Below the pieces are notes generated by a model. The model did not search any database. It was given only the letters and a program-made list of their open reading frames with translations, and had not been told where the DNA came from. The translations under genes and the position numbers were made by a program. A DNA stretch of 64,000 bases from Arcobacter acticola (lineage in GTDB: Bacteria > Campylobacterota > Campylobacteria > Campylobacterales > Arcobacteraceae): NCBI RefSeq assembly GCF_013177675.1, contig NZ_CP042652.1:620001-684000 (forward strand), in the 5' to 3' direction. This document shows positions 11,801 through 33,864 of this stretch, piece by piece. Position 1 is the first letter of the stretch. Every line of letters starts with the position of its first letter.

Positions 11801-12532
11801 TTAACTCCTTGTTATTTGATAAACTATTGGAACTGTTATTTCCCAAGAGTTCTTATTTAATTTTTCAGGTATTGGCTCAAATCTATTAATCTTTGCAAGA
11901 ATCTCTAAAGCTGCTTCATTTAATCTTTTGTAGTTTGAATCTTTTACAACTTTTACATCTTTGATTTGTCCATCTTTTGAAATAACAAAACAAACATGAA
12001 CTTTTCCCATTTGATTGAGTCTTTTTGCACTTTGTGGATAGATTTTATTTTTTTCAATTAAATATCTAAGTTTTGATAAATACTCATTTTCTAAGGCTTC
12101 TATTTGGCTTGGATCTATTGTATCTTTTTGTTTAAGCACTTCTTTTGAAGCTAATTCTTGTACTTGAGGTTCAGCTTTTTGTTCAACTTTAACTTCTTGG
12201 GTTTTCTCTACTTCCTTTAGAACTTTTTTTTCAACTTTTTTTACTTCTTTTATCTTTTTTTCTTTTTTCTTTTCTTGCTTTACTATATTTTTACTTTTAG
12301 TTTCAGGTAAAGGTTTTTCTATGATTTTCTCAACAATAGGCTCCACAACAGGTTCTACTTTTGGTTCAGGCTTTTTGATTACTACATTTTTTAGATTTAT
12401 TTTTGAAATATTAACTGCTGGTTTATTTTGTGCAACAACAACTTTTTCTTCAAGGTCCAAATTTGCGAATAGTAATAAATGCGCTGAAATTATCAGTGTA
12501 AAGATGATTAGTAAACTTTTTTTATTTTCCAT
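11801..12532 (-). CDS. tonB: Energy transducer TonB
   Basis: A 243-residue protein. One N-terminal TM helix (about 8-24) is followed by a long Pro/Glu/Lys-rich periplasmic spacer (KKPEPKVEPVVEPIVEK). A C-terminal TonB domain (about 155-243) has IYPQSAKRLNQMGKVHVCFVI. It links the ExbB/ExbD motor to TonB-dependent receptors; two receptor genes lie nearby at 21-24 kb and 29.5 kb. It is first in its operon, behind a Fur-like box at 12555-12567. Confidence 0.93.
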   Translation of the reverse strand: MENKKSLLIIFTLIISAHLLLFANLDLEEKVVVAQNKPAVNISKINLKNVVIKKPEPKVEPVVEPIVEKIIEKPLPETKSKNIVKQEKKKEKKIKEVKKVEKKVLKEVEKTQEVKVEQKAEPQVQELASKEVLKQKDTIDPSQIEALENEYLSKLRYLIEKNKIYPQSAKRLNQMGKVHVCFVISKDGQIKDVKVVKDSNYKRLNEAALEILAKINRFEPIPEKLNKNSWEITVPIVYQITRS

Positions 12533-12554
12533 ATGCGAATCTTAATATAATATT

Positions 12555-12800: not shown

Positions 12801-13253
12801 TAAATTAAGTAAAAAAAGATATTTCATTAAAAAATCATTAAAAAACCTTATATATAATTCTTAAAAAACAGAAGGAAGGGCTTTGCGTAAGATATTAATT
12901 TACTCATTATTTTGTAATTTTGCACTTGCAAATGGATTAGATGTATTACAAAATGATAAAAAAGAGTTAAGGAATTTAGAAAAAAAAATCATCGAAACTA
13001 GCTATAAAAGTTTAAAAAATGATTGGATTTCACCTATTACTATTAGTTCAAGTTTAAATAGAAATTATTCAAATATTGATGAAAATGATAAGTTATCAAA
13101 AAATATGTCAATTGGTTTTTCCCAAAGTATTTATGAATCAGGGGGGATTGAATTATCAATTCAATATGCAAAAGATAAATATAATTATGATTTACTTTCT
13201 TGGGAAAATATTAATAATCAAATACTGCAAGCTGTTTATGAAACACTAAGTAC

Positions 13254-13817
13254 CTACTTAAAATTAATGTCATAATTAGTTCCAAAGCCAGCTAATAAAT
13301 TTTTAACATGTTTATGTAAATTATCAAATGATAAATAAGCTTCTAGTTTATGATAGTGATATTTCATATGTTTCCACAATATTTCTATTTTATTTAGTTC
13401 AGGTGAATATGGTGGTAAAAATAATAATTGTAGTCCAAGCTTCTCCCACTTTTCTATCTCTGCTTTAAAAAGCTTACTTGTGTGAATAGATGCATTATCA
13501 AGTATGACAACAGTAGTTTTTGTAATCTGATTTACAAAATCATTAAAGAAATCTATAACAACTTGTGTATCTACTTTTGTTATTGTAGTTTTCGAAAAGA
13601 GATGATTATTCTTTGTATTTAAAAACCCTAAAACATTTATTCTTTTTGCAAATCTATTTGATGGAATTTCTACTGGCTTACCTATTGGTGACCAATAATA
13701 AGGGATATTTGAATCAAGTGAAAAACCACTCTCATCAAAATAATATGTATCAATCCAATCTTTAGCAGACCAGCTTAAAACATTAAGTATTTGAGCTTTT
13801 TTGGAAGAATAATTCAT
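13254..13817 (-). CDS. IS630 transposase, DDE catalytic half (orfB), copy 1
   Basis: 187 residues from the first ATG. The RNase-H-like DDE domain shows YYFDESGFSL (first D), VVILDNASIHTS (second D) and LPPYSPELNKIEILWKHMK (final E). The frame is open upstream of the ATG (NIQYSFKRARNTIFKEKKW), so the natural product is probably a fusion with orfA made by frameshifting at the A7 run (13873-13879). The stop codon lies in the terminal inverted repeat. Confidence 0.9.
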   Translation of the reverse strand: MNYSSKKAQILNVLSWSAKDWIDTYYFDESGFSLDSNIPYYWSPIGKPVEIPSNRFAKRINVLGFLNTKNNHLFSKTTITKVDTQVVIDFFNDFVNQITKTTVVILDNASIHTSKLFKAEIEKWEKLGLQLLFLPPYSPELNKIEILWKHMKYHYHKLEAYLSFDNLHKHVKNLLAGFGTNYDINFK

Positions 13818-13860
13818 CCACTTCTTCTCTTTAAATATAGTGTTTCTAGCTCTTTTAAAA

Positions 13861-14259
13861 CTATATTGTATATTTTTTTAAATATCTTTTTAAGATTTGA
13901 GGTGATACTTTTTTAACTCTTTTTGACTCTTTATTAAGAGCTATACAAGTCTCTTTGATACTATTTGTTTCAATAAGTTTTTTTACTTTATCAATATCAT
14001 TTTCATTTAGTGCTGGTTTTCTACCACGACCAATTTCATCAGATAAATTTTCTATTTGTTCTTCTTTGAATCTATCAAACCATCTATAAACTGTTCTTGT
14101 TGACTTATTGAATATTTTGCATATCTCTTTTACTGTTATACCTTCATTACTTAAAAGTATAGATTTAGCTCTTTGTCTTAATTGCAATGAACTACCATTT
14201 TTTACTATTTTTTCTAATTCTTTTACTGTTTTATTATTTAAATTACTTATATATCTCAT
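13861..14259 (-). CDS. IS630 transposase, helix-turn-helix half (orfA), copy 1
   Basis: 132 residues. The N-terminal HTH has VKEICKIFNKSTRTVYRWFDRF and is followed by a linker (GRGRKPALNENDIDKV), typical of the DNA-binding part of IS630 transposases. The frame ends just after an A7 run. The orfB frame is +1 relative to orfA, so a +1 slip or loss of one A in the transcript would join them. It differs from copy 2 by Ser versus Asn at residue 23. Confidence 0.88.
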   Translation of the reverse strand: MRYISNLNNKTVKELEKIVKNGSSLQLRQRAKSILLSNEGITVKEICKIFNKSTRTVYRWFDRFKEEQIENLSDEIGRGRKPALNENDIDKVKKLIETNSIKETCIALNKESKRVKKVSPQILKRYLKKYTI

Positions 14260-15144
14260 ATAGTATTATAGCTAAAACTAGCTTATAAAACAAGACATTA
14301 ATTTTGATTAATTACTTACTTGAGATATCAATATTAAACTTGCAAATTGAACAAAGTGAATATAAGCTTCAAAATAAAGAAATAGAACTGATTATAAAAA
14401 AGATTCAATATGAAGCTGGTTCTTTAGATATTATTGATTTAAATAATGCAATTATTTCCAAAAATACTCAATTTAAAGAAAATATTTCTTTGAAAAATTC
14501 ATTAAAAGATAAAGAATATGAATTATCAAAATATACAAATCTAAAATATCAAGAGATAGAAATAATAGATTTTAAAAATATTTCAAAAGAAGAATTTTTA
14601 GCAAACAACTTAGAATTGTCTCAAGAAAATTCAAAAATAAAAATGTTAGATACAAGTTATAAAAAACAAAAACTCAGTATTTACCAAAGCTTAGTTTATC
14701 TACTAGTTTAGGATATTCCCATAGCGATAATTTAGATGATAGCTCTGATTCTTATTCTGATACAAGCTCACTTGGTTTGACTTTATCTATGCCTTTATAC
14801 GATTATAATAAATCAAATAAATTAGAAGAGTCTAAGCTTGAATATTTAAAACAAAAAATACAAGTGAATGATTTGAAACTCGAGTTATCTAATAGTTATG
14901 AACAAATATTAAATCAAATAGATACATATGAACAATATAACAAAACAATAAATGAAAACATAAAGATATATGATGATTTAATTTTAGTAAATAGTAGTTC
15001 AAATGAAGCGGGAATGACATCTGTGTATGATTTATATATTCTAAAAAATACAAAAATAATTAATGAATATGACTTAGTAATAAACAATATTAATATTAAA
15101 TTACAATATTCACAACTATATTTTAAAATCAAAGGTTAGGGTTT

Positions 15145-19905: not shown

Positions 19906-20883
19906 CTAATTCCAATCTAAAAGTCTTTTTTGACCTTCTAGGGCTCTTATTTCAGTGACATCTTGAGACATTTCAATAACACCTTTGTAGTTTCTCTCGT
20001 CATCTCTTATTGCAAAATATCTTATATGAATAAATTTACCTTTAAATTCAATCCAAAACTCAGCAGTATCTTGACGTCCAGCTTTAAACTCTTCAAGAAT
20101 TTTTAAAACTTGATCAACACTTTTTGGAGGATGACAAAATTTAACTTCACGTCCAATGATTCCTGCACTTCTTGGGAAAACTCTATCATCTCCACGATTA
20201 TAAAAAACTACTTTGTCATTTTCATCAACATAAGTTATATCAACAGGAAGAAATTTAAATATAAAATTAACTTGTTCCATTGTTAAATAACCTTCATCAA
20301 AATGAGTTCTATCTTCTAGTGAAAAAGATAGTTTTCTTTTTTTAGTATCTAAACTTGGATGAACATATTCTTCTTGTGCTTTTGGTGGATATTGTGCCGG
20401 TGGTGTTGAAAACATCCATCCAATTTCACAATCACCCTCATACATCTCTTTCCAATCTTCTTCATTTAATAAATTCATTGCATTTGGCAAAAGTCTATTT
20501 TCTTCAACTAACATAAGTTGTGATAAGCTATTAAATACAACAATTAAATCATTTAAAATATTGTCTAAATCTTTTTCTTCAATTGCTTTTCTTACAACTT
20601 TTATTTCAGCTCTAATTTGATCATGAAAAGCCCACATTCCTTGACTAGGACTTGTCCAACCATATTTTTCTAAATATGGAAAAAGTTGATTTTCTTTTCT
20701 TGAAAAGTGTTTTTCAACTTGACTTATTTGATTAAAAAGATTAAAAAATAGTTGAAAATCTTCTTTAGCATCAACTTTAAATATCTCTTCAAAAAGTTGT
20801 TTTATTAATATGTTTTCTTCAATATAAACTCTTACTGGATGACCTTGAGGGAATCTTTCAATATTATTTATTAAGTTATCCAT
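19906..20883 (-). CDS. DUF438/hemerythrin-like protein with C-terminal PAS domain
   Basis: About 325 residues from ATG 20883, which has AAAGGA upstream; the frame upstream is open but not needed. N-terminal DUF438/HHE-like helices carry histidines and glutamates suited to a di-iron site (FSRKENQLFPYLEKYGW; MWAFHDQIRAE; MLVEENRLLPNAMNLL). The C-terminal PAS (about 215-320) has VDITYVDENDKVVFYNRGD and GREVKFCHPPKS. Such proteins are predicted sensors of O2, NO or redox state. It lies downstream of the NnrS/ABC/receptor operon, which fits an NO or iron link. Confidence 0.82.
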   Translation of the reverse strand: MDNLINNIERFPQGHPVRVYIEENILIKQLFEEIFKVDAKEDFQLFFNLFNQISQVEKHFSRKENQLFPYLEKYGWTSPSQGMWAFHDQIRAEIKVVRKAIEEKDLDNILNDLIVVFNSLSQLMLVEENRLLPNAMNLLNEEDWKEMYEGDCEIGWMFSTPPAQYPPKAQEEYVHPSLDTKKRKLSFSLEDRTHFDEGYLTMEQVNFIFKFLPVDITYVDENDKVVFYNRGDDRVFPRSAGIIGREVKFCHPPKSVDQVLKILEEFKAGRQDTAEFWIEFKGKFIHIRYFAIRDDERNYKGVIEMSQDVTEIRALEGQKRLLDWN

Positions 20884-20990
20884 TTTGTATTTTCCTTTTT
20901 TGTTTGTAGGAAATATATCAAAATGGGAATTATTGACAATGATATTAATCAAGAATAAGCTATAAAATCATCAGTAATTCTTTACTTTTA

Positions 20991-21398
20991 TTAAAAACTA
21001 TAAATATATTGAGATAAAAATACTACTAAAACTAGTAATGAAAAGAATAAATAATGAAAAATTGTTTTAAATCTAGCATTTGCATCTAATTTTGTAAATA
21101 ATAAAGGTACAAAATAAAAACCTATAACTAAAACAAGACCTAATAAAACTTTTATATGTAAAATTATTGAAGAATTATTAGCATATAGAAAGAACAATAG
21201 AAGCCCTGAGATAATCAAAATCAGATTATTGATTTTGATTATTCCTCTAGCTTTACTGCCCATTGCTTGCTGAATTTTATTTCCTTCTTCTTTTGGAAAA
21301 ACAGATATGATTTTTAAAATCACAAATGTTCTAAAAAACACAGTTCCCATAAATAAAATAATGCAAACTATGTGTATTGCTTTTAAAAATTCATACAT
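20991..21398 (-). CDS. Small integral membrane protein (CopD/DUF2269-like)
   Basis: 135 residues with four hydrophobic helices (about 7-28, 57-73, 79-100, 112-133). The first helix carries a histidine (FLKAIHIVCIILFMGTVFFRTF), a pattern seen in CopD-like and haem-associated small membrane proteins. It follows the TonB receptor gene by 15 bases, so it belongs to the same operon. A role in inner-membrane metal handling is plausible but unproven. Confidence 0.6.
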   Translation of the reverse strand: MYEFLKAIHIVCIILFMGTVFFRTFVILKIISVFPKEEGNKIQQAMGSKARGIIKINNLILIISGLLLFFLYANNSSIILHIKVLLGLVLVIGFYFVPLLFTKLDANARFKTIFHYLFFSLLVLVVFLSQYIYSF

Positions 21399-23406
21399 AA
21401 AATACCTCTATTTCTAAAAAGTGATTCTAAGACCAGTAAAATAATAACTCCCTACATTTGTACCAATTTCTTCATCAACCTCTTTATTAAAAATATTGTC
21501 AACACCTAAGTAATACTCGATATTTTTATTTATTTGATATTGAGCACCTAAATCAACCAATGTATAATCATTTGTTTGTTCAGTATTTGTTGAATTTGAG
21601 TATTGTTCTCCTATGTATCTAAGCATTAAATTTGTATTTAAATCATTAGTGATTTTATAATTTACACTAAATGAAGCAGAAATATCAGGTGTATAAGTTA
21701 ACTCTTTTCCTGTACTTTCATCTTCAGTTTTTAAATATGTAGCATTTAATCCAAGGTCAATATCTTTATTTAAATCATAATCAAAAGATACTTCTGCTCC
21801 TTTTATATCAACTTGGTCAATATTTTCAGATGTATAATATTTTGTAGAAGAACTTGAATCATTGTATGAAACAAGATCAATTTTGTCTTTAACTTTATTG
21901 TTAAATATTGTAAATACAGATGAAAGATTTTCATATTTATTTGATAATGAAAGCTCAAATGTTTGAGATTGTTCAGGTTTTAAGTCATAAGATTCTGTTT
22001 TAATAGTATTAATAACCTCAGAACCATATCTTTTAGCTCCTTTATAATACATAGAAACAACATAAAGTTCAGCAATATCAGGAGTTCTATATCCTTGAGC
22101 ATAATTTGCTCTAATACTTGTATCCTCTGCTATTTCTTTTACTAATCCTGCTTGAAGAGTAATTTTATTATCAGCATTTGAAATATTGTCATATCTTGTA
22201 CCAACTATTGCATTTAGTGTATCAGAAATTTCTATTTCATCTTGTATAAATAAAGATTCATAATTTACAACTTTTGTAATAAATTCACTAGATGATGCAT
22301 CTGGATTTATTGCTCCTGAATCTCTAGTCTCTTTTCTGTATTCAAGACCCGTTGTAATAATATTTGAATCATTTAAGATATAAGTTAAATCTGATTCTAA
22401 AGTATCAATAGTTACATTTGCACTAAATTTAGTATTTGTAGCACCATCAAAAGTTAAAGGATCAGTATAATTTCTTTTTTTGTAGTATGATCTATACACT
22501 TTTGTATTCATAGATAAATCATCATTTATAAGATATTTGAAATCACTTGAAATATCTATTCTTCTATTTTTATCTTCAGAATTTACAGGAGTATTTGTAA
22601 TTAATCCTCCACTTGTTGCTGACGCATTTCCTAAGTATTGTCCTTCTCTATCTTCTGTAAAATAGCTTAAATCAAGACCTGCTGTAAAATTATCTGAAAA
22701 ATCATATTCTAATCTTGTTCCTATAGTTTTAACAGTTGCTTCATCTTTATAAGTCACATCATAGTTTCCAGAAATATTATCTAAAGAATTTCCATTTAAA
22801 TCTGCTCCAGAACTTGGATTAATAGCTTGTTGTGTATAAGATTTATTTACTTTATAAGGAGTTGTATCATCAATAGAAGTATTAATTTTATATCTAAGTT
22901 TATCAACGCTACCTCTATTTGTAAAGTTTACATTTTTATTTATAGCATCACCATCACCATTTGAGCCATATTTTAAATCTAATGTTGAAACATTTTTATC
23001 TATTTTTTTTGTGATAATATTAATTACACCACCAATAGCATCAGATCCATATAATGTCGACATTGAACCTTTAACTATTTCTATTCTTTCAATCATAGAT
23101 GCTGTTATTCTAGTCATTTCGTATGGACTTTCAGTTTCACCTGATAATCTTTTACCATCAACTAAAATTAATGTACCATTTGCTCCCATACCTCTTAATG
23201 ATATAGAAGCTTTTGAAGAAGCACTTGGATGTGGAAACCTCCCATATTGAGCATTTATCGAGGGTACTTTTTCTAAAATCTTATCTAAAGTTGAAGCACC
23301 TGTTTTTTGAATTTCTTCTTCTGTAATAACTATAACAGATGCACTAACTCCTTCTATATTTTTCTCAGTTTTTGTTGCAGTTGTTACCATTACTTCTTCT
23401 AAGTAC

Positions 23407-23970
23407 CTACTTAAAATTAATGTCATAATTAGTTCCAAAGCCAGCTAATAAATTTTTAACATGTTTATGTAAATTATCAAATGATAAATAAGCTTCTAGT
23501 TTATGATAGTGATATTTCATATGTTTCCACAATATTTCTATTTTATTTAGTTCAGGTGAATATGGTGGTAAAAATAATAATTGTAGTCCAAGCTTCTCCC
23601 ACTTTTCTATCTCTGCTTTAAAAAGCTTACTTGTGTGAATAGATGCATTATCAAGTATGACAACAGTAGTTTTTGTAATCTGATTTACAAAATCATTAAA
23701 GAAATCTATAACAACTTGTGTATCTACTTTTGTTATTGTAGTTTTCGAAAAGAGATGATTATTCTTTGTATTTAAAAACCCTAAAACATTTATTCTTTTT
23801 GCAAATCTATTTGATGGAATTTCTACTGGCTTACCTATTGGTGACCAATAATAAGGGATATTTGAATCAAGTGAAAAACCACTCTCATCAAAATAATATG
23901 TATCAATCCAATCTTTAGCAGACCAGCTTAAAACATTAAGTATTTGAGCTTTTTTGGAAGAATAATTCAT
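23407..23970 (-). CDS. IS630 transposase, DDE catalytic half (orfB), copy 2
   Basis: Same 187-residue protein as copy 1, with the catalytic segments YYFDESGF, VVILDNASIHTS and LPPYSPELNKIE. All three acidic residues are retained, so the element may be active. Joining to orfA would need a +1 shift at the A7 run (24026-24032). Confidence 0.9.
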   Translation of the reverse strand: MNYSSKKAQILNVLSWSAKDWIDTYYFDESGFSLDSNIPYYWSPIGKPVEIPSNRFAKRINVLGFLNTKNNHLFSKTTITKVDTQVVIDFFNDFVNQITKTTVVILDNASIHTSKLFKAEIEKWEKLGLQLLFLPPYSPELNKIEILWKHMKYHYHKLEAYLSFDNLHKHVKNLLAGFGTNYDINFK

Positions 23971-24013
23971 CCACTTCTTCTCTTTAAATATAGTGTTTCT
24001 AGCTCTTTTAAAA

Positions 24014-24412
24014 CTATATTGTATATTTTTTTAAATATCTTTTTAAGATTTGAGGTGATACTTTTTTAACTCTTTTTGACTCTTTATTAAGAGCTATACA
24101 AGTCTCTTTGATACTATTTGTTTCAATAAGTTTTTTTACTTTATCAATATCATTTTCATTTAGTGCTGGTTTTCTACCACGACCAATTTCATCAGATAAA
24201 TTTTCTATTTGTTCTTCTTTGAATCTATCAAACCATCTATAAACTGTTCTTGTTGACTTATTGAATATTTTGCATATCTCTTTTACTGTTATACCTTCAT
24301 TACTTAAAAGTATAGATTTAGCTCTTTGTCTTAATTGCAATGAATTACCATTTTTTACTATTTTTTCTAATTCTTTTACTGTTTTATTATTTAAATTACT
24401 TATATATCTCAT
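24014..24412 (-). CDS. IS630 transposase, helix-turn-helix half (orfA), copy 2
   Basis: 132 residues with the HTH segment VKEICKIFNKSTRTVYRWF, equal to copy 1 except Asn instead of Ser at residue 23. It ends next to the A7 run that precedes the orfB frame. Confidence 0.88.
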   Translation of the reverse strand: MRYISNLNNKTVKELEKIVKNGNSLQLRQRAKSILLSNEGITVKEICKIFNKSTRTVYRWFDRFKEEQIENLSDEIGRGRKPALNENDIDKVKKLIETNSIKETCIALNKESKRVKKVSPQILKRYLKKYTI

Positions 24413-24556
24413 ATAGTATTATAGCTAAAACTAGCTTATAAAACAAGACATTAATTTTGATTAATTACTTAAAGAACTATTCGCAAAGCTATTTTGAACT
24501 AATGCTAGACTTGTAATCGCAGAAATTAAGACTAATTTTTTCATGTTTTGTTTTCC

Positions 24557-25534
24557 TTATTTGTAATATAAATTTGTATCGGGAATTTTCCCACCTATTG
24601 ATTTTGGCTCACTATTTTTTAAAATATTAAAGAAAGATTCTAAATCATCTTTTGCTTCAATTGCATTTATGCTTTCAAATGAAATATGAGAAATAGAATC
24701 AGCTAAACCATTTTCTTCTAACATTGGAAGCTCTTTTACTATAAGTTTTGAAGCTTCAACAGGATTTTGTTTGTACCAATCAAGTGATTTTGAGTACTCT
24801 TGCAAAAATCTATTTATTAATATTTCTTTTCCTTTTGTATCTCCTATATAAGCTATTCCTGCTTGTGGTAATTTAGCTTTAGTTTGAAATAATTCTCCCC
24901 ATTCTTTTTGTAAATCAACACTTCTATACAAATCAGGTGCAACTACACTTATTGGGAATGATTTAGTTTTTCTTAAAGCTATTGAAATAGCAGGTTCTGC
25001 TAAAAGTGCATGGTCAACTCTTCTTAAAATTAACATTTGCATAGCATCAATTGGACTTGATACATATCTAAAATTGAAATCTTTTTGAGGATCTAAACCA
25101 TGCTTTTTTATTAGTTCTGTAAGTACAATATCAGGCATATCTGCTCTAAATGGAACAGCTATTTCTTTTCCTTTAAAATCTTTTAATGATTTTAAATTAG
25201 GGTCTCTACTTATCATTCCTAATATTCCCCAAATAGATACATTTAGAAGCTTAATATTTACACCTTTGTTATATAGATTTGCTGCAACATTTGTAGGAAG
25301 TGCTATAAAATTTATGTCTCCATTCAAAATCAAAGCTCTTAATTCATCTGGATTTTTCCAAAGAACAAACTCTATATTTATTCCCATATCTTTTAGGGAT
25401 TTATTTTTTGCCATATGTATTATTGGATGTGATACACTTGCAAATGGCCCTGCTACTTTTATTGTCACTTGTTCTTTTACTTCACTTGAAAATAGTGAAA
25501 TAGCCATAAATAAAACACTTAATATTTTTTTCAT
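24557..25534 (-). CDS. ABC transporter substrate-binding protein (SsuA/TauA/NMT1-like)
   Basis: 325 residues with a signal peptide (MKKILSVLFMAISLFSSE). It has a periplasmic NMT1/SsuA-like fold: VAGPFASVSHPIIHMAKN near the start, then GDINFIALPTNVAANLYNKG and LKDFKGKEIAVPFRADMPD. Family members bind sulfonates, thiamine precursors, nitrate or similar small anions. Here the gene lies between NnrS and a TonB receptor (12 bases to the receptor ATG) behind a Fur-like box, so a metal complex or its chelator is a reasonable guess. The substrate is not determined. Confidence 0.85.
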   Translation of the reverse strand: MKKILSVLFMAISLFSSEVKEQVTIKVAGPFASVSHPIIHMAKNKSLKDMGINIEFVLWKNPDELRALILNGDINFIALPTNVAANLYNKGVNIKLLNVSIWGILGMISRDPNLKSLKDFKGKEIAVPFRADMPDIVLTELIKKHGLDPQKDFNFRYVSSPIDAMQMLILRRVDHALLAEPAISIALRKTKSFPISVVAPDLYRSVDLQKEWGELFQTKAKLPQAGIAYIGDTKGKEILINRFLQEYSKSLDWYKQNPVEASKLIVKELPMLEENGLADSISHISFESINAIEAKDDLESFFNILKNSEPKSIGGKIPDTNLYYK

Positions 25535-25569
25535 AAATATCCTTTCCTTTTTTTAATAATTTAGTTTTC

Positions 25570-26811
25570 TTAACCTGGTATTCCATCTGCTCTTTTATTA
25601 AGCAAATATGGGAAAAATATTTTCATATAAATAATAAATGGAATAGCCCATAAAATAGATGAACTAATATATGCCATCATTATAAACTCTTCATAATATG
25701 GAATAAAACTTCTAATAAAAGTTGATAAGATAATTAGAATAAATCCTATATTCAGCCAGATATTTGTAAAGAGTAGTCTTCCTGTATGAACAGTAGAAAT
25801 TACAATCATAACCACATAAAAAACCATTCCAAAAACACCACTTGTTAGAAAATGTCTAAAATGATTTAAAGCAAAAATCTCATCATTTAAATAGTCAAAT
25901 CCTAAAAAGCCATAACCTAAAGCCATTAAAATTAAAATACTCATTAAATAAATAATAAAAGGTTTAAATAAAATATTGTTATCTTTTAAAATAAAATCAT
26001 TTAATATATTTAAAATAGAAGCAGCACTTGCAAGTGCAAGATAAGCTAAAATAGGGTTTTGAGGATAAAAAAATTCTGTTAATGTATAAAGAGTTACACA
26101 AAAAATAGCTAGATTATATCTAGGTGATCTTGCATAAAATGTTTCATCAATTCCTTCATGCTCTAACAACTCATTTATAGCTTCCATATTTACACGTCTA
26201 ATTGCTAATAAAACAAGAACCATAAATAAACCAAGAGATAAAAGCATTGTAGAATGAGTATCAAATGAGATTAAATTACCAGCACTTGCAAAAAATAATA
26301 CTTGAGCTAAAATTAAAGAAACAAGTGAAAATCCAAGTGATATATGTCTTTTTGTAACATCAGCAAAAAGAGGTTTTATAACAAGAGCTGTGATATAAAC
26401 AAGTAGTGCAATATTTAAAAACCCAACTAAATAAATACCTAAGTAATCAATAAACCAAAATCCAACTCTTCCTGCAAGCCATAAAAGTGTAATAAATGCA
26501 AGTTTTTTCCCAACAACTGGAATAGTTCCTGGAAATAATTCAGGAGCTCCCGTTAGAAAAAAAGCCATAATTCCAGCACTTCCAATTCCAAATATCATTT
26601 CATACATATGCCAATTTAAAGTATCTTCCATAAAAGGAAGTGAAATATATCCAGCAAATGTAAGTGACCATAAAATAATAGAAATCACAATATACGGAGC
26701 TAAAAGTAAAAAGATAGGTCTAAATCCATATGCTAAATATGGAGGGAACTCTCCTTTTGGGTAATGGGTATAGTGATTTGTTGCGTATTGTTTTTTTATT
26801 TCTTCAATCAT
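25570..26811 (-). CDS. nnrS: NnrS family haem/copper membrane protein
   Basis: A 413-residue polytopic protein with about 12 TM helices. NnrS signatures are AYGFRPIFLLLAPY near residue 30, WHMYEMIFGIGSAGIMAFFLTGAPELF, and a histidine-containing FRHFLTSGVFGMVFYVVMIV late in the protein. NnrS proteins bind haem and copper and protect against nitric-oxide stress or metal-centre damage during denitrification. It overlaps the ABC ATPase gene by 4 bases. The divergent Crp/Fnr gene and FNR-type box upstream fit NO- or O2-linked control. Confidence 0.88.
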   Translation of the reverse strand: MIEEIKKQYATNHYTHYPKGEFPPYLAYGFRPIFLLLAPYIVISIILWSLTFAGYISLPFMEDTLNWHMYEMIFGIGSAGIMAFFLTGAPELFPGTIPVVGKKLAFITLLWLAGRVGFWFIDYLGIYLVGFLNIALLVYITALVIKPLFADVTKRHISLGFSLVSLILAQVLFFASAGNLISFDTHSTMLLSLGLFMVLVLLAIRRVNMEAINELLEHEGIDETFYARSPRYNLAIFCVTLYTLTEFFYPQNPILAYLALASAASILNILNDFILKDNNILFKPFIIYLMSILILMALGYGFLGFDYLNDEIFALNHFRHFLTSGVFGMVFYVVMIVISTVHTGRLLFTNIWLNIGFILIILSTFIRSFIPYYEEFIMMAYISSSILWAIPFIIYMKIFFPYLLNKRADGIPG

Positions 26812-27575
26812 TTTAATTCCAATTCAAATGTATTTATAATCGTTTCATCACTTAAAAGTTTTGCAGTTTGCTCATAAACAAATTTATTATCTCTTTGTAT
26901 TTTTGGTAAATCAAAACTAAATTTTTTGATGATATGTCCAACTGGTTCAGCTTTTAAAACAAGTATTTCATCACTTAATTTAATAGCTTCCATTAAATCG
27001 TGTGTAATAAAAAGTACACTTAATTGTTTTTCTTCTATTTGCTTTATAAGTAAAGTTTGTAACTCTTTTTTAAGTCCAATATCCAAAGCTGAAAAAGGTT
27101 CATCTAAAAATAGTAAAGAGGGATTTATTACAAGTGCTCTTGCAAAAGATACTCTTTGTTTCATTCCTCCACTTAAATCTTTTGGAAACTTATAGAAATC
27201 ATCTTCTTCAAGACCAAATTTTAAAGCAATAGCTTTAGCTTCTTCTTCTCTTTTTTCTTTCTTTATACCTTTTGCTTTTAATCCTAAAGAAATATTATCA
27301 AGGACATTTTTCCATGGTAGTAGTCTTGCTTCTTGAAATGCAAAAGATGAGCTTGTAAAACTATTTTTTATTTTTCCAGTTTCAAGAGTCAAGAGTTTTG
27401 CACAAAGATGAAGTAATGTAGTTTTACCTCCACCACTTGGTCCCACTATTGAAGTAACTTTTCCTTTTTCTAGTGTAAAACTGATATCTTTTAAGATATC
27501 GCTAAAACCAAAAGAGTGTGAAACATTTTGTACTATTAATTGTTCTTTTTGACTTTTTATATTATTTATCTCCAT
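26808..27575 (-). CDS. ABC transporter ATPase (SsuB/TauB-like)
   Basis: 255 residues with Walker A GPSGGGKTT, signature LSGGMKQRVSFARAL, Walker B LLFLDEPFSALD and H-loop ITHD. It belongs to the nitrate/sulfonate/taurine importer class. It overlaps both neighbours (10 bases with the permease, 4 with NnrS), so translation is coupled. It would energise import by the permease at 27566-28345. Confidence 0.9.
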   Translation of the reverse strand: MEINNIKSQKEQLIVQNVSHSFGFSDILKDISFTLEKGKVTSIVGPSGGGKTTLLHLCAKLLTLETGKIKNSFTSSSFAFQEARLLPWKNVLDNISLGLKAKGIKKEKREEEAKAIALKFGLEEDDFYKFPKDLSGGMKQRVSFARALVINPSLLFLDEPFSALDIGLKKELQTLLIKQIEEKQLSVLFITHDLMEAIKLSDEILVLKAEPVGHIIKKFSFDLPKIQRDNKFVYEQTAKLLSDETIINTFELELK

Positions 27576-28345
27576 GATTCAACCTCTCTTTTTATCGGTT
27601 CTAAGATAATATATTCAATTAAAAGTAGGATTGCTATCATGATTACCACAAGCGCAAGTGCGACTGGAGTATCAAGTTGACTTCGAGCAATTGCTAAAGC
27701 TGAACCAATTCCATCATTTGCTGATAATAACTCAGCCATTACTACAATTTTCCATGCCATTCCAAGAGCACCTATCCAAGCTGGAAAAATATAAGAAAAA
27801 ATATGAGGAAAATATAAATCAAATAGTTTCATTTTAAAACTAAGATGAAAACTATCTGCCATCTCTTTTAAATCACCTTCAAGAGTTCTAGTTCCTTGTA
27901 AAGCTCCTATAAAAACAATTGGAAAAGATGCAACAATCACAGTAAAAATAACAGTCATATCTCCCATACCAAACCAAATCATGGCAAGAACTATCCAAGC
28001 AATTGGAGGCATACCCATAAGAATAGTAACAATTGGACGACTCATCATAGATGTTGTTACAAAAAGTCCAGAAAGTAAACCTAAGAAAGTTCCAAAAATC
28101 AAAGAAATAGAAAAACCAATTACAGCTCTTTTTGTAGTGATTAATATTTCATTTATCATTTTTTCATCTTTTAACATTTCAAAAAGAGTTAAGAAAGTCT
28201 CTTTAGGACTTGGTAATATAAGATTTCCATATATTTGATTTCCTAAATCCCAAAATGCAAGAAATAGAAGTATTGATGCAATAGCACCCCAACCACTCCA
28301 TAAGTATGAAGGAAAGTCTTTAATGATTTTTATAAGAAAGTTCAT
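27566..28345 (-). CDS. ABC transporter permease (SsuC/TauC-like)
   Basis: 259 residues with six TM helices. The BPD_transp_1 loop is visible as EMADSFHLSFKMKLFDLYFPHIFSYIFPAWIGALGMAWK in parts (the EAA-type loop) near residues 160-200. It is first gene of the operon permease-ATPase-NnrS-binding protein-receptor-membrane protein. The Fur-like and FNR-like boxes at 28389-28417 lie 44 bases upstream. Confidence 0.9.
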   Translation of the reverse strand: MNFLIKIIKDFPSYLWSGWGAIASILLFLAFWDLGNQIYGNLILPSPKETFLTLFEMLKDEKMINEILITTKRAVIGFSISLIFGTFLGLLSGLFVTTSMMSRPIVTILMGMPPIAWIVLAMIWFGMGDMTVIFTVIVASFPIVFIGALQGTRTLEGDLKEMADSFHLSFKMKLFDLYFPHIFSYIFPAWIGALGMAWKIVVMAELLSANDGIGSALAIARSQLDTPVALALVVIMIAILLLIEYIILEPIKREVESWR

Positions 28346-28388: not shown

Positions 28389-28403
28389 TGATAGTAATTA
28401 TCA
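28389..28403. promoter_or_regulatory. Fur-box-like palindrome in divergent ABC/Crp-Fnr promoter region
   Basis: TGATAGTAATTATCA, within the longer AATGATAGTAATTATCATT (28387-28405). One mismatch breaks the palindrome. It lies between the divergent permease and regulator genes. Confidence 0.75.
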
Positions 28404-28417
28404 TTGACTTAAGTCAA
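28404..28417. promoter_or_regulatory. FNR/CRP-type palindrome TTGAC-N4-GTCAA
   Basis: TTGACTTAAGTCAA is a perfect palindrome with the TTGAN-N4-NTCAA layout of FNR/DNR-family sites. It abuts and slightly overlaps the Fur-like box. It is centred about 41 bases before the regulator ATG and 65 before the permease start. Likely bound by the adjacent Crp/Fnr protein or a paralogue. Confidence 0.65.
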
Positions 28418-28451: not shown

Positions 28452-29087
28452 ATGTATAACCAGATATTAAAAAAAATAGAATTCTTTAGTTTATTAAATG
28501 CAGATGAAATAGAACAAATCAATAATTCTTGCCAAATAGTTACATTAAATAGAGATAACATACTCTTTTATGAGGGAGATTTAGCTAAATCATTTTATAT
28601 TTTACTTGAAGGGAGCCTAAAATTATACAAAATAGGGAGTTCTGGAAATGAAATTATAATGCACCATTTTGTTCAACCCACATTACTTGCGGAAATGGCA
28701 ACTTTTCAAAATGATTCTTTTCCTGCAACTGCTATAAGTACAAGTCAGGTAACAAAAATTGCCATTTTAGATAAAGAAATATTTATTTCACTATTACAAA
28801 GTAATGGAAATCTATCTTTTCATATTATAGGATCATTAATAAGTAAGATGAAATCATTAGAACAAACTATACATAAAAATTTGGTGTATGACGCTAGACA
28901 AAGAATTTGTGCATTACTAAAAGATAATCCAAAAATTTTAATAGACAAAAAACATTCTTTCGTTGCAAAGATATTAAATATGGCACCAGAAACACTTTCT
29001 CGTAATATAAGAAAACTAAGAGAAAAAGGCTATTTAGATAAAAATAACATAGTTATTAATGATTCTTTTGATGAATTATTGGAATAA
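28452..29087 (+). CDS. Crp/Fnr family transcriptional regulator
   Basis: 211 residues. A cyclic-nucleotide-binding-like beta barrel is at about 10-120 (ILFYEGDLAKSFYILLEGSLKLYKIGSSGNEI). The dimer helix follows, then a winged HTH at about 165-205 (VAKILNMAPETLSRNIRKLREKGYL). It lacks the N-terminal cysteine cluster of FNR, so it is nearer the DNR/NssR-like NO-sensing or effector-free types. No clear Shine-Dalgarno precedes the ATG, and the AT-rich GATAAT just upstream could make the transcript almost leaderless. It is divergent from the NnrS/ABC operon and probably controls it and itself. Confidence 0.85.
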   Translation: MYNQILKKIEFFSLLNADEIEQINNSCQIVTLNRDNILFYEGDLAKSFYILLEGSLKLYKIGSSGNEIIMHHFVQPTLLAEMATFQNDSFPATAISTSQVTKIAILDKEIFISLLQSNGNLSFHIIGSLISKMKSLEQTIHKNLVYDARQRICALLKDNPKILIDKKHSFVAKILNMAPETLSRNIRKLREKGYLDKNNIVINDSFDELLE

Positions 29088-29179: not shown

Positions 29180-29194
29180 TGATAATAATTATCA
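29180..29194. promoter_or_regulatory. Fur-box-like palindrome upstream of hemP and haem receptor
   Basis: TGATAATAATTATCA is a perfect palindrome 101 bases before the hemP GTG start, in the expected promoter region of a haem-uptake operon. Confidence 0.8.
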
Positions 29195-29508: not shown

Positions 29509-31494
29509 TTGAAATTAAAAATTGCAAAAACAGTTGCAGCATTAATGCTGGCTAATATATCAGTTCAGGCTGAAAATTCACAATCTACACACTTAGATGA
29601 TGTAAATATTAAAACAACAACAGCATTTGATGCTCAAATAAAATCTATTTCTTCGCAAGAATTAGAAGATAAGCAAGCAAGTGATGTAAAAGATGTTTTA
29701 AAATCTATTCCAAGTGTAGATGTATCAGGTGATGCAAGATATGCACAAAAAATATATGTAAGAGGATTAGATGATAAATCTTCAAATATCACAGTTGATG
29801 GTGCTAAAGTAGGTGGTCAATTATTTCACCATTCAGGTGATCAAACTATTGATCCATCGTTATTGAAGATCACTTCTGTTGAACTAGGACCAAACTCTGC
29901 TTTAAGCGGTTCAGGAGTAATTAATGGTTCATTTGTTTATGAAACAAAAGATCCAAGTGATTTTTTAGAACCAAATGAAGTTTTTGGTGGAAAAGTTACT
30001 TTAGGTTATCAAAGTGGATATGAGAGAAAAACAGGTACAGTGGCTGTTTTTGGTAGAGTAAATGACAAAGTAGAGTTCGTAGGAATTGGTACAATTTCTG
30101 ATGATGGAACATTACGAATAGGTGGTGGTGAAGAGTTTACTTCAAAAGAAAGTAGACTTGAAAGTGGTTTAGCAAAAATTGTTATAAAAGCAAATGATTA
30201 CAATACAATCAAACTTTCATATAATAGATATGAAGATAGTGGAGATAGACAACTTTCAGGTGAAAAAGTAGGAACAGATAATGAAGAAGACTATAACTCA
30301 ATAACAAGAGATACTTTTAATATAAATTATGAATATAAACCTGATAATGAACTTGTAAATGTAAAAGCAAATACTTATTACAATGAACAGTATTTAACAA
30401 GAGAAGCTACAAGTGAAGCAACTTATGAAGAACCTGAAAGAGAGTATAAAAATACAACACTAGGATATGACTTAAGAAATACATCTTTATTGGGAATACA
30501 TAAAATCACTTATGGAACTGATTATACCCATGAAGAACAAGAAGTAAGTGCAGATGGGTACAGAGTTTATACAACAGGTGTAACAGAAGATTTAAATGTA
30601 AGTGGTGGTGAAATAGATAATAGAGGTTTATATATTGAAGATGAAATGCAATTAAATAAACTAACTTTAACTTTAGGTGCTAGATATGATTACCATGAAT
30701 TAGGTGGAATCTATGATGGAACATTCAAAGAATTATCTCCTAAATTAAAAGCCAAATATCAACTTACAGATGAGTTAGCTTTAAAAACTGCATACGGTCA
30801 TATCTTTAAAGGTCCAGCTTTAGGTGAAACCTTAATGTTAAGTAGTACAACAACTCAAGATGATGATGTGAGTGCTCAAATTGGAAATAACTTTGAGCTT
30901 GGATTTGATTATGATTTAACAAATACTTTAAATGCTGATTATTCAATTTTTGGATTTAATGTTTATAGATATGATGTTGACAATTATTCATATCCTACAA
31001 AAAACAATAGTCTATCAAGCGAAAGTGATGTTGTTATTTGGGGACTTGAAACAATGTTCTCTTATGAGAAAGATAAATTTGGTTTAAATGCAAGTCATAG
31101 TTATACTGATGGGAAAGAAAAAGATTTAGCATCAGGAACTACATATGATCCTAAAGCTGCACATATTCATTTATTTAAAATTGCTTTAAATTACCAATTA
31201 TTAAATGAATTAAAAGGAAGTTATTCTACACAGTTCGTACCTGGGAATACATGGAATGAGTATTCATCAACATCAGGGGTAATAGAATATGAAAGAGGTG
31301 GATATGCTACTCATGATGTAGACTTTACATATAAACCAAATTCAATGAAAAATACAACATTTAACTTTGGTGTTGGAAATATTTTTGATAAAAAATATGT
31401 TAGTCATAATGGTTTCGGTGCACAAACTACAAGTACAAATAGAAACTATGATGTTGGAAGAAACGTAAAATTTCAACTATCTTATAGATTTTAA
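29509..31494 (+). CDS. TonB-dependent haem receptor
   Basis: 661 residues from TTG 29509 (CAAGGAA eight bases upstream). The signal peptide is about 1-21 (ending VQAEN). The plug has SSQELEDKQASDVKDVLKSIPSVDV and YVRGLDDKSSNITVDGAKVGGQLFHHSGDQTIDP. The 22-strand barrel ends in an aromatic tail KFQLSYRF. The plug wording and the upstream hemP place it with haem/haemoglobin receptors of the ChuA/HmuR/HasR-like group. Unlike the receptor at 21-24 kb it is intact. Haem as substrate is inferred from hemP. Confidence 0.88.
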   Translation: MKLKIAKTVAALMLANISVQAENSQSTHLDDVNIKTTTAFDAQIKSISSQELEDKQASDVKDVLKSIPSVDVSGDARYAQKIYVRGLDDKSSNITVDGAKVGGQLFHHSGDQTIDPSLLKITSVELGPNSALSGSGVINGSFVYETKDPSDFLEPNEVFGGKVTLGYQSGYERKTGTVAVFGRVNDKVEFVGIGTISDDGTLRIGGGEEFTSKESRLESGLAKIVIKANDYNTIKLSYNRYEDSGDRQLSGEKVGTDNEEDYNSITRDTFNINYEYKPDNELVNVKANTYYNEQYLTREATSEATYEEPEREYKNTTLGYDLRNTSLLGIHKITYGTDYTHEEQEVSADGYRVYTTGVTEDLNVSGGEIDNRGLYIEDEMQLNKLTLTLGARYDYHELGGIYDGTFKELSPKLKAKYQLTDELALKTAYGHIFKGPALGETLMLSSTTTQDDDVSAQIGNNFELGFDYDLTNTLNADYSIFGFNVYRYDVDNYSYPTKNNSLSSESDVVIWGLETMFSYEKDKFGLNASHSYTDGKEKDLASGTTYDPKAAHIHLFKIALNYQLLNELKGSYSTQFVPGNTWNEYSSTSGVIEYERGGYATHDVDFTYKPNSMKNTTFNFGVGNIFDKKYVSHNGFGAQTTSTNRNYDVGRNVKFQLSYRF

Positions 31495-31529: not shown

Positions 31530-32121
31530 AATAATCACTATCGTTAATAAACCATTAAAATTCATTGGTTAAAATTTCAAAAATTAAAAAAGAGAGAAAA
31601 TATGCATAAAAAGTTTTTGTTCAAAGTCCATCTTATTTTAGGATTAACAGCAGGATTTGTTTTGATGATAATTGGATTAACAGGTTCAATTTTATCTTTT
31701 GAAAAAGAGATAATACAATTTATAAATAAAGATAGTTACTTTGTAAAAAATGTAAATGAACCAAGGTTGTCAATAGAAGATATATTAAATGATTTTAATA
31801 AAAAAATCCCAGATGCTAAAATAAATGCTTTAACTTTTTCAAAAAATGAAAATTCTTCATTAGTTATAAACATTGCTTCAAAAGATAAAAAAGCTAGAAA
31901 AGGAATCAACTATTATATAAATCCTTATACAGCTGAGATTTTAGCAGATATAAAAGGTGAAGTTTTTTTTAAATTTATTGAAAATATTCATAGACGACTT
32001 GCCTTTGGTGATGTTGGTAAACAAATAGTAGGAGCAAGTGTTTTATCACTTTTATTACTTATGATTAGTGGAGTTTATATTTATTGGCCTAGAATAAAAC
32101 ATGCATTTTTCAAAAGTATTA

Positions 32122-33264
32122 TTACTCCACCGATAAACTAAACTAATTATATGCTAAATTTAGCTATAATTTGAAATGGAAAAAATAAATAAATTAGAAA
32201 AAAATGATGCTAGAAAAGTAGATTCAAATACATTACAGTATCTCAGAGATAGAGCAATTAAATTAAGGGATAGTGGTATAAGTAATCTTGAAACAGCTGC
32301 AATATTAGGTTTGTCAAAAATTACAACATCAAGATGGTATAGCAAATATAAAAAAGATGGTCAAAAAGCACTTAAAGTTCAAAAAACTGGTCGTCCTAAA
32401 AAGTCTGGTAAGAGACTTAGCGATGAACAAGAGGAAAAAATCATCCGAATGCTTATAGATACAACCCCAGAACAATTAAAGTTTAAGTTTGCTTTGTGGA
32501 CAAGAGAAGCTGTAAAACAGTTAATTCTAAGAGTAGTAGATATTGATATGCCAATATCAACAGTTGGAGATTATCTTGCAAAATGGCAATTTACTTCGAA
32601 AAAACCAATAAAAAGAGCTTATGAAAGAAAAGATAGTGCAACTAAAGCTTGGTTGGAAGAAACATATCCAAAAATCAAAAAAGAAGCAAAAATAAATAAT
32701 GCTGATATTTGGTGGGCTGATGAGACTGCTTGTGTATCAATGCCATCAAATTTAAAAGGATATGCTCCAATAGGAAGTAAAATAAAACCTATTCTTACTC
32801 ATACAGCTAAAAAGTTTAAAGTGAATATGATATCAGCCATTACAAATACAGGTAAATCAATGTTTGCATTGTATGATGATTCAATAGCTACAGATAATTT
32901 TATAGATTTTTTAGAAAAAGTAATAAAATCAAATGATAAAAAAGTATTTATGATAGTAGATAACCTAAGAGTACATCATGCTAAATTAGTAAAAGCTTGG
33001 GAAGAAAAGCATAAAGATAAAATCAAACTCTTTTATCTTCCACCATACTCCCCAGAATTTAATCCTGATGAATATTTGAATCAAGATTATAAGAGTAATG
33101 TACATAAAAATGGTCTGCCAAAAAATCAAAAAGAACTAAAAGAAAACACACAAAATTATATGGAGAATTTACAAAAAAATCCACAAAAAATAGCTAACTT
33201 TTTTCAACATCAAAGTGTTAAATATGCTAGCTAATGAAATTAGCTCTGTTTATTGGGGGAGTAA
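32122..33264 (+). mobile_element. IS630-family insertion sequence, single-ORF type
   Basis: 1143 bp with TA duplications at 32120-32121 and 33265-33266. Terminal inverted repeats begin TTACTCCACCGATAAAC on the left and TTACTCCCCCAATAAAC on the right, with further similarity inward to about 31 bases. One transposase gene. It is unrelated in detail to the two 1068-bp copies at 13 and 23 kb, but uses the same TA target type. Confidence 0.92.
32176..33234 (+). CDS. IS630-family transposase (single ORF)
   Basis: 352 residues. The N-terminal HTH region is about 20-70 (NLETAAILGLSKITTSRWYSKY), followed by a second HTH-like part and the DDE domain. The domain shows IWWADETACVSMPSN (first D), VFMIVDNLRVHHAK (second D) and YLPPYSPEFNPDEYLNQ (final acidic residue). 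All catalytic positions are present, so it may be active. Confidence 0.92.
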   Translation: MEKINKLEKNDARKVDSNTLQYLRDRAIKLRDSGISNLETAAILGLSKITTSRWYSKYKKDGQKALKVQKTGRPKKSGKRLSDEQEEKIIRMLIDTTPEQLKFKFALWTREAVKQLILRVVDIDMPISTVGDYLAKWQFTSKKPIKRAYERKDSATKAWLEETYPKIKKEAKINNADIWWADETACVSMPSNLKGYAPIGSKIKPILTHTAKKFKVNMISAITNTGKSMFALYDDSIATDNFIDFLEKVIKSNDKKVFMIVDNLRVHHAKLVKAWEEKHKDKIKLFYLPPYSPEFNPDEYLNQDYKSNVHKNGLPKNQKELKENTQNYMENLQKNPQKIANFFQHQSVKYAS

Positions 33265-33864
33265 TACTTTTAAATTTAAAAGTAAAGGAAGAGCTTTTTT
33301 ATCTACAATGCACAGCACTATTGGTATATGGGTAATTCCTTTTTATTTAATCTCATGTTTAACAGGACTTTATTGGTCATATGATTGGTATAGCAATTCT
33401 TTACACTCTTTAACAGGTGTAGAAAAACAGAAAAAAATGCCACCTAAATTTGATGAAAATGCTGTTTTATCATATACAGATGTTCAAAAAGCTCTTGATT
33501 TATTTAATGAAAATGTAAAAGATTATGAGAAAATAAATATTAGGTTTACAGCAAAAAATGAAACTTATACTTTTTCATATTTGCCAACAAATCCAACTCA
33601 TGATATGGCTATGAATAAAATAGAATTAGATATAAATACAAATGAAGTTATAAAACATGAAAAATTTGAAGATAAATCTATGGCAGAAAAACTTATGAAA
33701 AGTATTTTAGCTTTACATACAGGTGAGTATTTTGGTCTGTTTGGGAAAATCATAATGTTTACAACTTCTCTATTAATGTCACTATTTACAATAACAGGTC
33801 TTATGATGTATATAGGAAGAAAAAAGAAAAAACTTAAAGAAGCGGATAAAGCAGTAGTTTAAAA

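Follow-up and report, generated by a model that had tools for sequence, protein, structure and literature searches.

A conserved ABC importer paired with NnrS behind a composite Fur–CRP/FNR-type operator in Campylobacterota: a candidate metal-chelate uptake system for N-oxide respiration

Several described systems share parts with the locus reported here. The importers SsuABC, TauABC and NrtABC have the same ATP-binding cassette (ABC) architecture and the same binding-protein fold, and the pair PqqU–PqqT likewise combines a TonB receptor with a closely similar binding-protein fold. CrtA, OprC and NosA are outer-membrane receptors that are also tied to respiration. Membership of the family PF05940 is shared with the NnrS proteins of denitrifying and nitric oxide (NO)-stressed bacteria, and in other proteobacteria nnrS is controlled by NO-responsive FNR-like regulators (PMC1274295). 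In Wolinella, Nss regulators of the CRP/FNR family are known to govern the respiration of nitrate, NO and nitrous oxide (N2O) (PMC6682613). We analyzed a stretch of 64,000 nucleotides from Arcobacter acticola (contig NZ_CP042652.1, positions 620,001 to 684,000; hereafter the window), which contains an operon encoding an ABC permease and ATPase, NnrS, an NMT1-type periplasmic binding protein, a TonB-dependent receptor and a small CopD/HemJ-like membrane protein (Table 1). An earlier, sequence-only reading of the window had proposed that this operon provides a two-membrane uptake route for a metal complex or its chelator. Our own interpretation, which we hold tentatively, is a conserved two-membrane system under Fur and CRP/FNR control that may import a small iron chelate for N-oxide respiration.

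The importer and NnrS are the invariant part of a conserved unit. Orthologues of the binding protein (E < 1e-50, mostly 52–94% identity) occur in 56 of 104 Arcobacteraceae genomes, and 442 stretches with relatives of the protein were obtained from a named genome collection. The best 80 of these 442 include records of Arcobacter, Aliarcobacter, Malaciobacter, Poseidonibacter, Sulfurimonas, Sulfuricurvum, Sulfurovum, Sulfurospirillum, Thiomargarita and Thiobacillus. We refer to the permease, ATPase, NnrS and binding protein together as the cassette, and counted gene content in the 86 homologous loci with at least 5.5 kb of flank on each side. The permease and ATPase adjoin the binding protein on the same strand in 78 of these loci, and NnrS is present in 69 by direct similarity, a screen for which the Campylobacter-type NnrS is too distant (Pfam found NnrS in L178, the one such locus tested). 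There are two main orders, permease–ATPase–NnrS–binding protein and binding protein–permease–ATPase–NnrS, so the genes stay linked through rearrangement. The unit is distributed across Campylobacterota and some Pseudomonadota, where the order receptor–binding protein–permease–ATPase–NnrS recurs. Conserved co-occurrence in Campylobacterota, which the sequence-only reading had put forward as a check, is thus observed and extends beyond that phylum; chance clustering is ruled out by the recurrence in rearranged orders, in other genera and in a second phylum.

The operon is preceded by a 29-bp composite operator in which a CRP/FNR-type palindrome directly abuts a Fur box with a gap of 0. The Fur-like box had been recognized in the sequence-only reading and is real, whereas the perfect TTGAC-N4-GTCAA palindrome adjoining it had been missed. 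The window as a whole contains five Fur-like boxes compared to 0.16 expected. A Fur-type box matching at least 12 of 14 positions stands before 70 of 104 cassettes compared with 30 of 213 control operon starts, and a perfect FNR-type palindrome before 37 of 104 cassettes compared with 10 of 213 controls. Both enrichments hold when only one locus per 75%-identity cluster is retained (p = 5 × 10−5 for the Fur box and p = 8 × 10−8 for the FNR-type palindrome), and among the 33 regions upstream of a cassette in which both elements occur, 28 show a gap of exactly 0. The conserved 7-1-7 box suggests that the operon belongs to the Fur regulon, and the palindrome, shared with N-oxide genes, suggests that it belongs to the N-oxide (Nss/FNR) regulon as well. 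The CRP/FNR-family regulator encoded divergently from the operon has a 64–71% identical counterpart beside the cassette in L034–L037 and L047.

Searches with the composite pattern yielded 29 matches in the 104 Arcobacteraceae genomes and none with the reversed control pattern; the A. acticola genome (one 3.02-Mb contig) contains a single occurrence. The cassette follows 18 of the 29 operators, and NO-related genes follow the other 11: paralogues of NnrS, a cluster of HPP, DUF2269 and norB, a gene for a DUF2249 protein, and FmdE, which YgbA_NO accompanies once. The 151 Sulfurimonadaceae genomes gave 19 matches, again with none for the reversed control, and all 19 stand before the cassette. The operator-linked NnrS, norB and FmdE genes appear to constitute a small undescribed NO-linked regulon. 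Individual loci of other Arcobacteraceae in which the operator precedes an NnrS paralogue, the DUF2249/HPP/DUF2269/norB cluster or FmdE genes form two groups, L223, L224, L226 and L229–L231, and L225, L227, L228 and L232. Several nos operons have an FNR-type box with no abutting Fur box. The sharing of one operator with such genes would be expected if the cassette were an NO-defence unit centred on NnrS, with the importer supplying a cofactor or a substrate for repair. NO inactivates Fur, which would give the Fur box its place in such a unit. We consider this explanation improbable, as NO defence alone does not account for the outer-membrane partners and the exbBD neighbours.

The cassette is also associated with nosZ (PF18764). 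Among the 104 Arcobacteraceae genomes, 35 contain both, 21 only the cassette, 8 only nosZ and 40 neither, a co-occurrence that is significant with p = 2.8 × 10−6 by Fisher’s exact test and p = 1 × 10−4 with labels shuffled within genera. The corresponding counts for 397 Campylobacterota genomes are 69, 27, 59 and 242 (p = 1.6 × 10−20, not corrected for phylogeny). In six genomes of several families the cassette and nosZ lie within ~17 kb of each other, and in two of these a CRP/FNR gene stands in between. Outside Campylobacterota, nosZ is present in two of six carriers examined, a sample of draft genomes too small for a judgement. The norB gene content is uninformative because the model PF22085 exceeds its cut-off in only 5 of the 104 genomes. 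In L187 (12521–15998) nosZ is in two pieces around a transposase gene, beside the cassette and a CRP/FNR gene.

These observations lead us to propose how a system importing an iron chelate might work. An outer-membrane protein would admit the ligand: in the window this is the TonB-dependent receptor, in other loci a barrel of OprC-like or PF13557 type. The NMT1-type binding protein would then capture the ligand, and the permease and ATPase would import it or its chelator. In the inner membrane, NnrS would act together with the importer and reduce or protect the metal, most likely by delivering electrons or by guarding against NO. Which regulator activates and which represses at the composite operator we infer as follows: ample iron would keep the operon repressed, iron shortage would lift the repression by Fur, and anoxia or N-oxides would act through the adjoining site and its CRP/FNR-type regulator. 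Because signals of iron and of anoxia or N-oxides would govern it together, the system would serve cells that respire nitrate, NO or N2O.

The outer-membrane arm is the most variable part of the system. A TonB receptor accompanies the cassette in 30 of the 86 loci, and intact relatives of the window receptor with 58–68% identity are found in other genomes. A barrel of ~617 amino acids, for which the best-scoring model is the OprC/NosA copper receptor although the score is below the cut-off, is found in 10 loci of Campylobacter type, and a PF13557 barrel of ~315 amino acids in 7 loci, with more among the loci that have short flanks. The TonB receptor, which the sequence-only reading took for a member of the set, is one of several alternative partners. 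A haem ligand is not supported: the window receptor scores 207 bits with the haem receptor model TIGR01785 (cut-off 316.85), and the 12 Arcobacter-type receptors compared have neither the FRAP/NPNL haem-receptor motifs nor an invariant histidine. The tie to NO and N-oxide metabolism, by contrast, is supported by the shared operator and the association with nosZ.

Two groups of loci differ from the window in their outer-membrane proteins. The Campylobacter/Helicobacter-type cassettes (L172–L182) start with the ~617-residue OprC/NosA-related barrel; at least five histidines are invariant among seven members, and a domain scan of one member (L178) gave no Plug match. A Sulfurospirillum-type cluster (L119, 8586–11884, and L191) lacks the importer and consists of a PF13557 barrel, a CopD-like protein and the binding protein, followed by a NosL-domain protein.

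The principal competing explanation is a copper supply route serving nitrous oxide reductase and the haem-copper oxidases, where the receptor or OprC-like barrel would pass copper to the periplasm and the importer, CopD-like protein and NnrS would deliver it. The co-occurrence and proximity of nosZ are consistent with this route, as are the Campylobacter-type barrels (177.9 bits with TIGR01778) and the NosL-domain protein in the L119 cluster, and TonB-dependent copper receptors tied to respiratory oxidases do exist (PMC12914433). We nevertheless regard copper as unlikely. The Fur-type boxes indicate iron, and the TIGR01778 cut-off of 472 bits is missed by all, the window receptor reaching 61.6. 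NosL adjoins only 2 of 115 loci, both of Sulfurospirillum type, and the 12 Arcobacter-type receptors have no invariant histidine or cysteine, unlike CrtA with its essential invariant histidine (PMC12914433).

Several points weigh against the iron-chelate interpretation. The enzyme whose gene co-occurs with the cassette, NosZ, requires copper, and the 10 Campylobacter-type barrels fit the copper-receptor model best. The two-membrane route, although its outer-membrane arm is often present, has none of the three partner types nearby in 39 of the 86 loci. When loci are clustered at 65% identity the enrichment of the Fur box is reduced to p = 0.005 and that of the FNR-type palindrome to p = 0.004. 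In favour of iron, ferritin (7 of 115 loci), FeoAB (5 of 115) and ExbBD (5 of 115) are encoded near the cassette, although these counts come without matched control loci.

The AlphaFold model of the window NnrS (predicted local distance difference test score 89) has a fold like that of the cbb3 oxidase subunit I (CcoN), which in a Foldseek search was the sole match at E < 0.001, with template-modelling scores up to 0.69 over nearby ranks. Five histidines are invariant (H13, H68, H156, H320 and H342); of these, H68 belongs to the second long membrane helix of the model and H320 to the tenth. In haem-copper oxidases the second and tenth helices bear the ligands of the low-spin haem, and the sixth and seventh those of CuB. 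The sixth and seventh helices of NnrS have no invariant histidine, so the protein probably lacks a CuB site. It is conceivable, though we think it somewhat doubtful, that NnrS serves a dedicated metal-chelate ABC importer as its redox partner in the inner membrane. It would then be an oxidase-like haem protein, lacking CuB, by which iron or copper is reduced or protected on entry for the metalloenzymes of NO- and N2O-respiring bacteria.

The binding protein, for which the AlphaFold model is confident (score 89.8), has as its nearest solved structure 3hn0, BDI_1369 of Parabacteroides distasonis (Z = 30.9). No other PDB entry matches it clearly in sequence (3hn0: E = 7.8 × 10−24), and the two have the same C-terminal GGxLPD motif. 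PqqT (Z = 27.9), SsuA (26.1) and NrtA (25.1) follow. This likeness, together with the TonB receptor PqqU that PQQ (pyrroloquinoline quinone) uptake likewise uses (PMC12124388), would suit the import of PQQ or of another cofactor or organic nutrient, for instance a sulfonate, nitrate or a thiamine precursor. Fold likeness to PqqT, SsuA and NrtA is no proof of the ligand, and further comparisons make such a substrate quite unlikely. Curated NCBIfam cut-offs are missed by wide margins for sulfonate and taurine importers (SsuA 47 bits against 163.5, SsuB 154 against 395, SsuC 83 against 347, TauB 174 against 357, TauC 59 against 342) and for nitrate importers (ntrB 71 against 209, ntrCD 136.5 against 291.8), and these three substrates were rejected. 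Thiamine and B12 uptake were set aside with no riboswitch reaching the gathering threshold, and PQQ with no association between the cassette and quinoproteins (42 of 56 carriers lack PF13360 above the cut-off; Fisher p = 0.29). A Fur box would also be unexpected for an organic ligand.

Table 1. Features of the NnrS-importer operon and its upstream region, in window coordinates
Feature	Position	Strand	Basis
Four-helix CopD/HemJ-like membrane protein, 135 aa, optional member	20991-21398	-	UPF0093 match below cut-off
TonB-dependent receptor, gene body; listed start not native	21414-23438	-	Plug + barrel domains
IS630-type element inside receptor gene	23399-24471	-	1,073 bp, 99.9% identical to 13246-14318
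Residual 5' end of receptor gene (start codon + signal peptide)	24472-24544	-	Direct sequence reading
NMT1-type periplasmic binding protein	24557-25534	-	PF09084
NnrS, 12-helix membrane haem protein	25570-26811	-	PF05940, 244.4 bits vs gathering cut-off 28
ABC ATPase	26808-27575	-	PF00005 (ABC_tran)
ABC permease	27566-28345	-	PF00528 (BPD_transp_1)
Fur-type 7-1-7 box, 13/14 positions	28389-28403	.	Box scan
CRP/FNR-type palindrome TTGACTTAAGTCAA, abuts Fur box	28404-28417	.	Perfect TTGAC-N4-GTCAA
Divergent CRP/FNR-family regulator	28452-29087	+	PF00027 + PF13545

The genes that the sequence-only reading assigned to one operon were all recovered, and Pfam confirmed the families of all but the CopD-like protein. 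Its overlaps of 10 bases between permease and ATPase and of 4 bases between ATPase and NnrS are correct, whereas the third, of 12 bases, is a gap between the stop of the binding-protein gene and the original start of the receptor gene; the spacing from NnrS to the binding-protein gene is 35 bases. An IS630 copy interrupts the receptor gene immediately past the signal peptide, and because the element cuts the gene the receptor is probably not made in this strain. The label “CopD-like” is weak, as the Pfam scan found no CopD match in the 135-residue protein and both related models fall below their cut-offs (UPF0093 28.6 against 34.2 bits, TIGR00701 16.6 against 138). Relatives of this protein, in which H9 and H115 are invariant, occur in 14 of the 86 loci.

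The operon is surrounded by an exbBD–tonB group, in which the TonB gene has its partners upstream, by the genes of a tripartite efflux system and by a second TonB receptor next to PepSY_TM. Fur boxes stand in front of them, and the exbBD–tonB group and the receptor–PepSY set count in favour of iron. The segment 10905–18315 contains the TonB gene (11801–12532), which two short genes follow, and the OEP/HlyD/ABC/MacB efflux genes, which Fur boxes at 12554 and 12787 separate from the TonB group; an IS630 copy (13246–14318) interrupts the OEP gene. On the other side, a perfect Fur box at 29180 is found with the second TonB receptor (29509–31494), followed by the PepSY_TM membrane gene (31602–33862), which is split by a transposase gene (32176–33234, PF13358). 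A hemerythrin and PAS protein is encoded just downstream of the operon (19906–20952), and relatives with 86–90% identity are likewise found on the downstream side of the cassette in L033, L065 and L094–L097.

These results would connect NnrS, and a family of orphan importers, with the provision of metal for respiring NO and N2O in a phylum rich in N2O reducers. If so, metal supply would belong to the switch by which removal of the greenhouse gas N2O is enabled in these bacteria, and the role of NnrS would become directly testable, with the composite operator as a ready genetic handle.

The part families of the system are all known. No description of their combination, a conserved importer paired with NnrS behind a composite operator, came up in the open-access literature that was searched (NnrS with TonB, ABC or iron, and copper with NMT1; most subscription papers lie outside this coverage), and the main text of a paper on the N2O transcriptome of Nitrosophilus labii names neither NnrS nor an ABC transporter; within that literature, the earlier statement that no function had been described for this gene set is borne out. 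Compared with SsuABC, TauABC and NrtABC, the cassette falls short of the curated cut-offs and has NnrS, often an outer-membrane protein, and a Fur and CRP/FNR-type operator. It differs from PqqU–PqqT in having NnrS, in a binding protein with only 18% identity to PqqT, and in the missing link to quinoproteins. With CrtA, OprC and NosA it shares the resemblance of the Campylobacter-type barrels to TIGR01778, but the cut-off is missed, the Arcobacter-type receptors have no invariant histidine, and the cassette has an ABC importer, NnrS and a Fur-type box. Finally, in contrast to NnrS of denitrifying and NO-stressed bacteria, NnrS is here constantly paired with an ABC importer behind a composite Fur–CRP/FNR-type operator.

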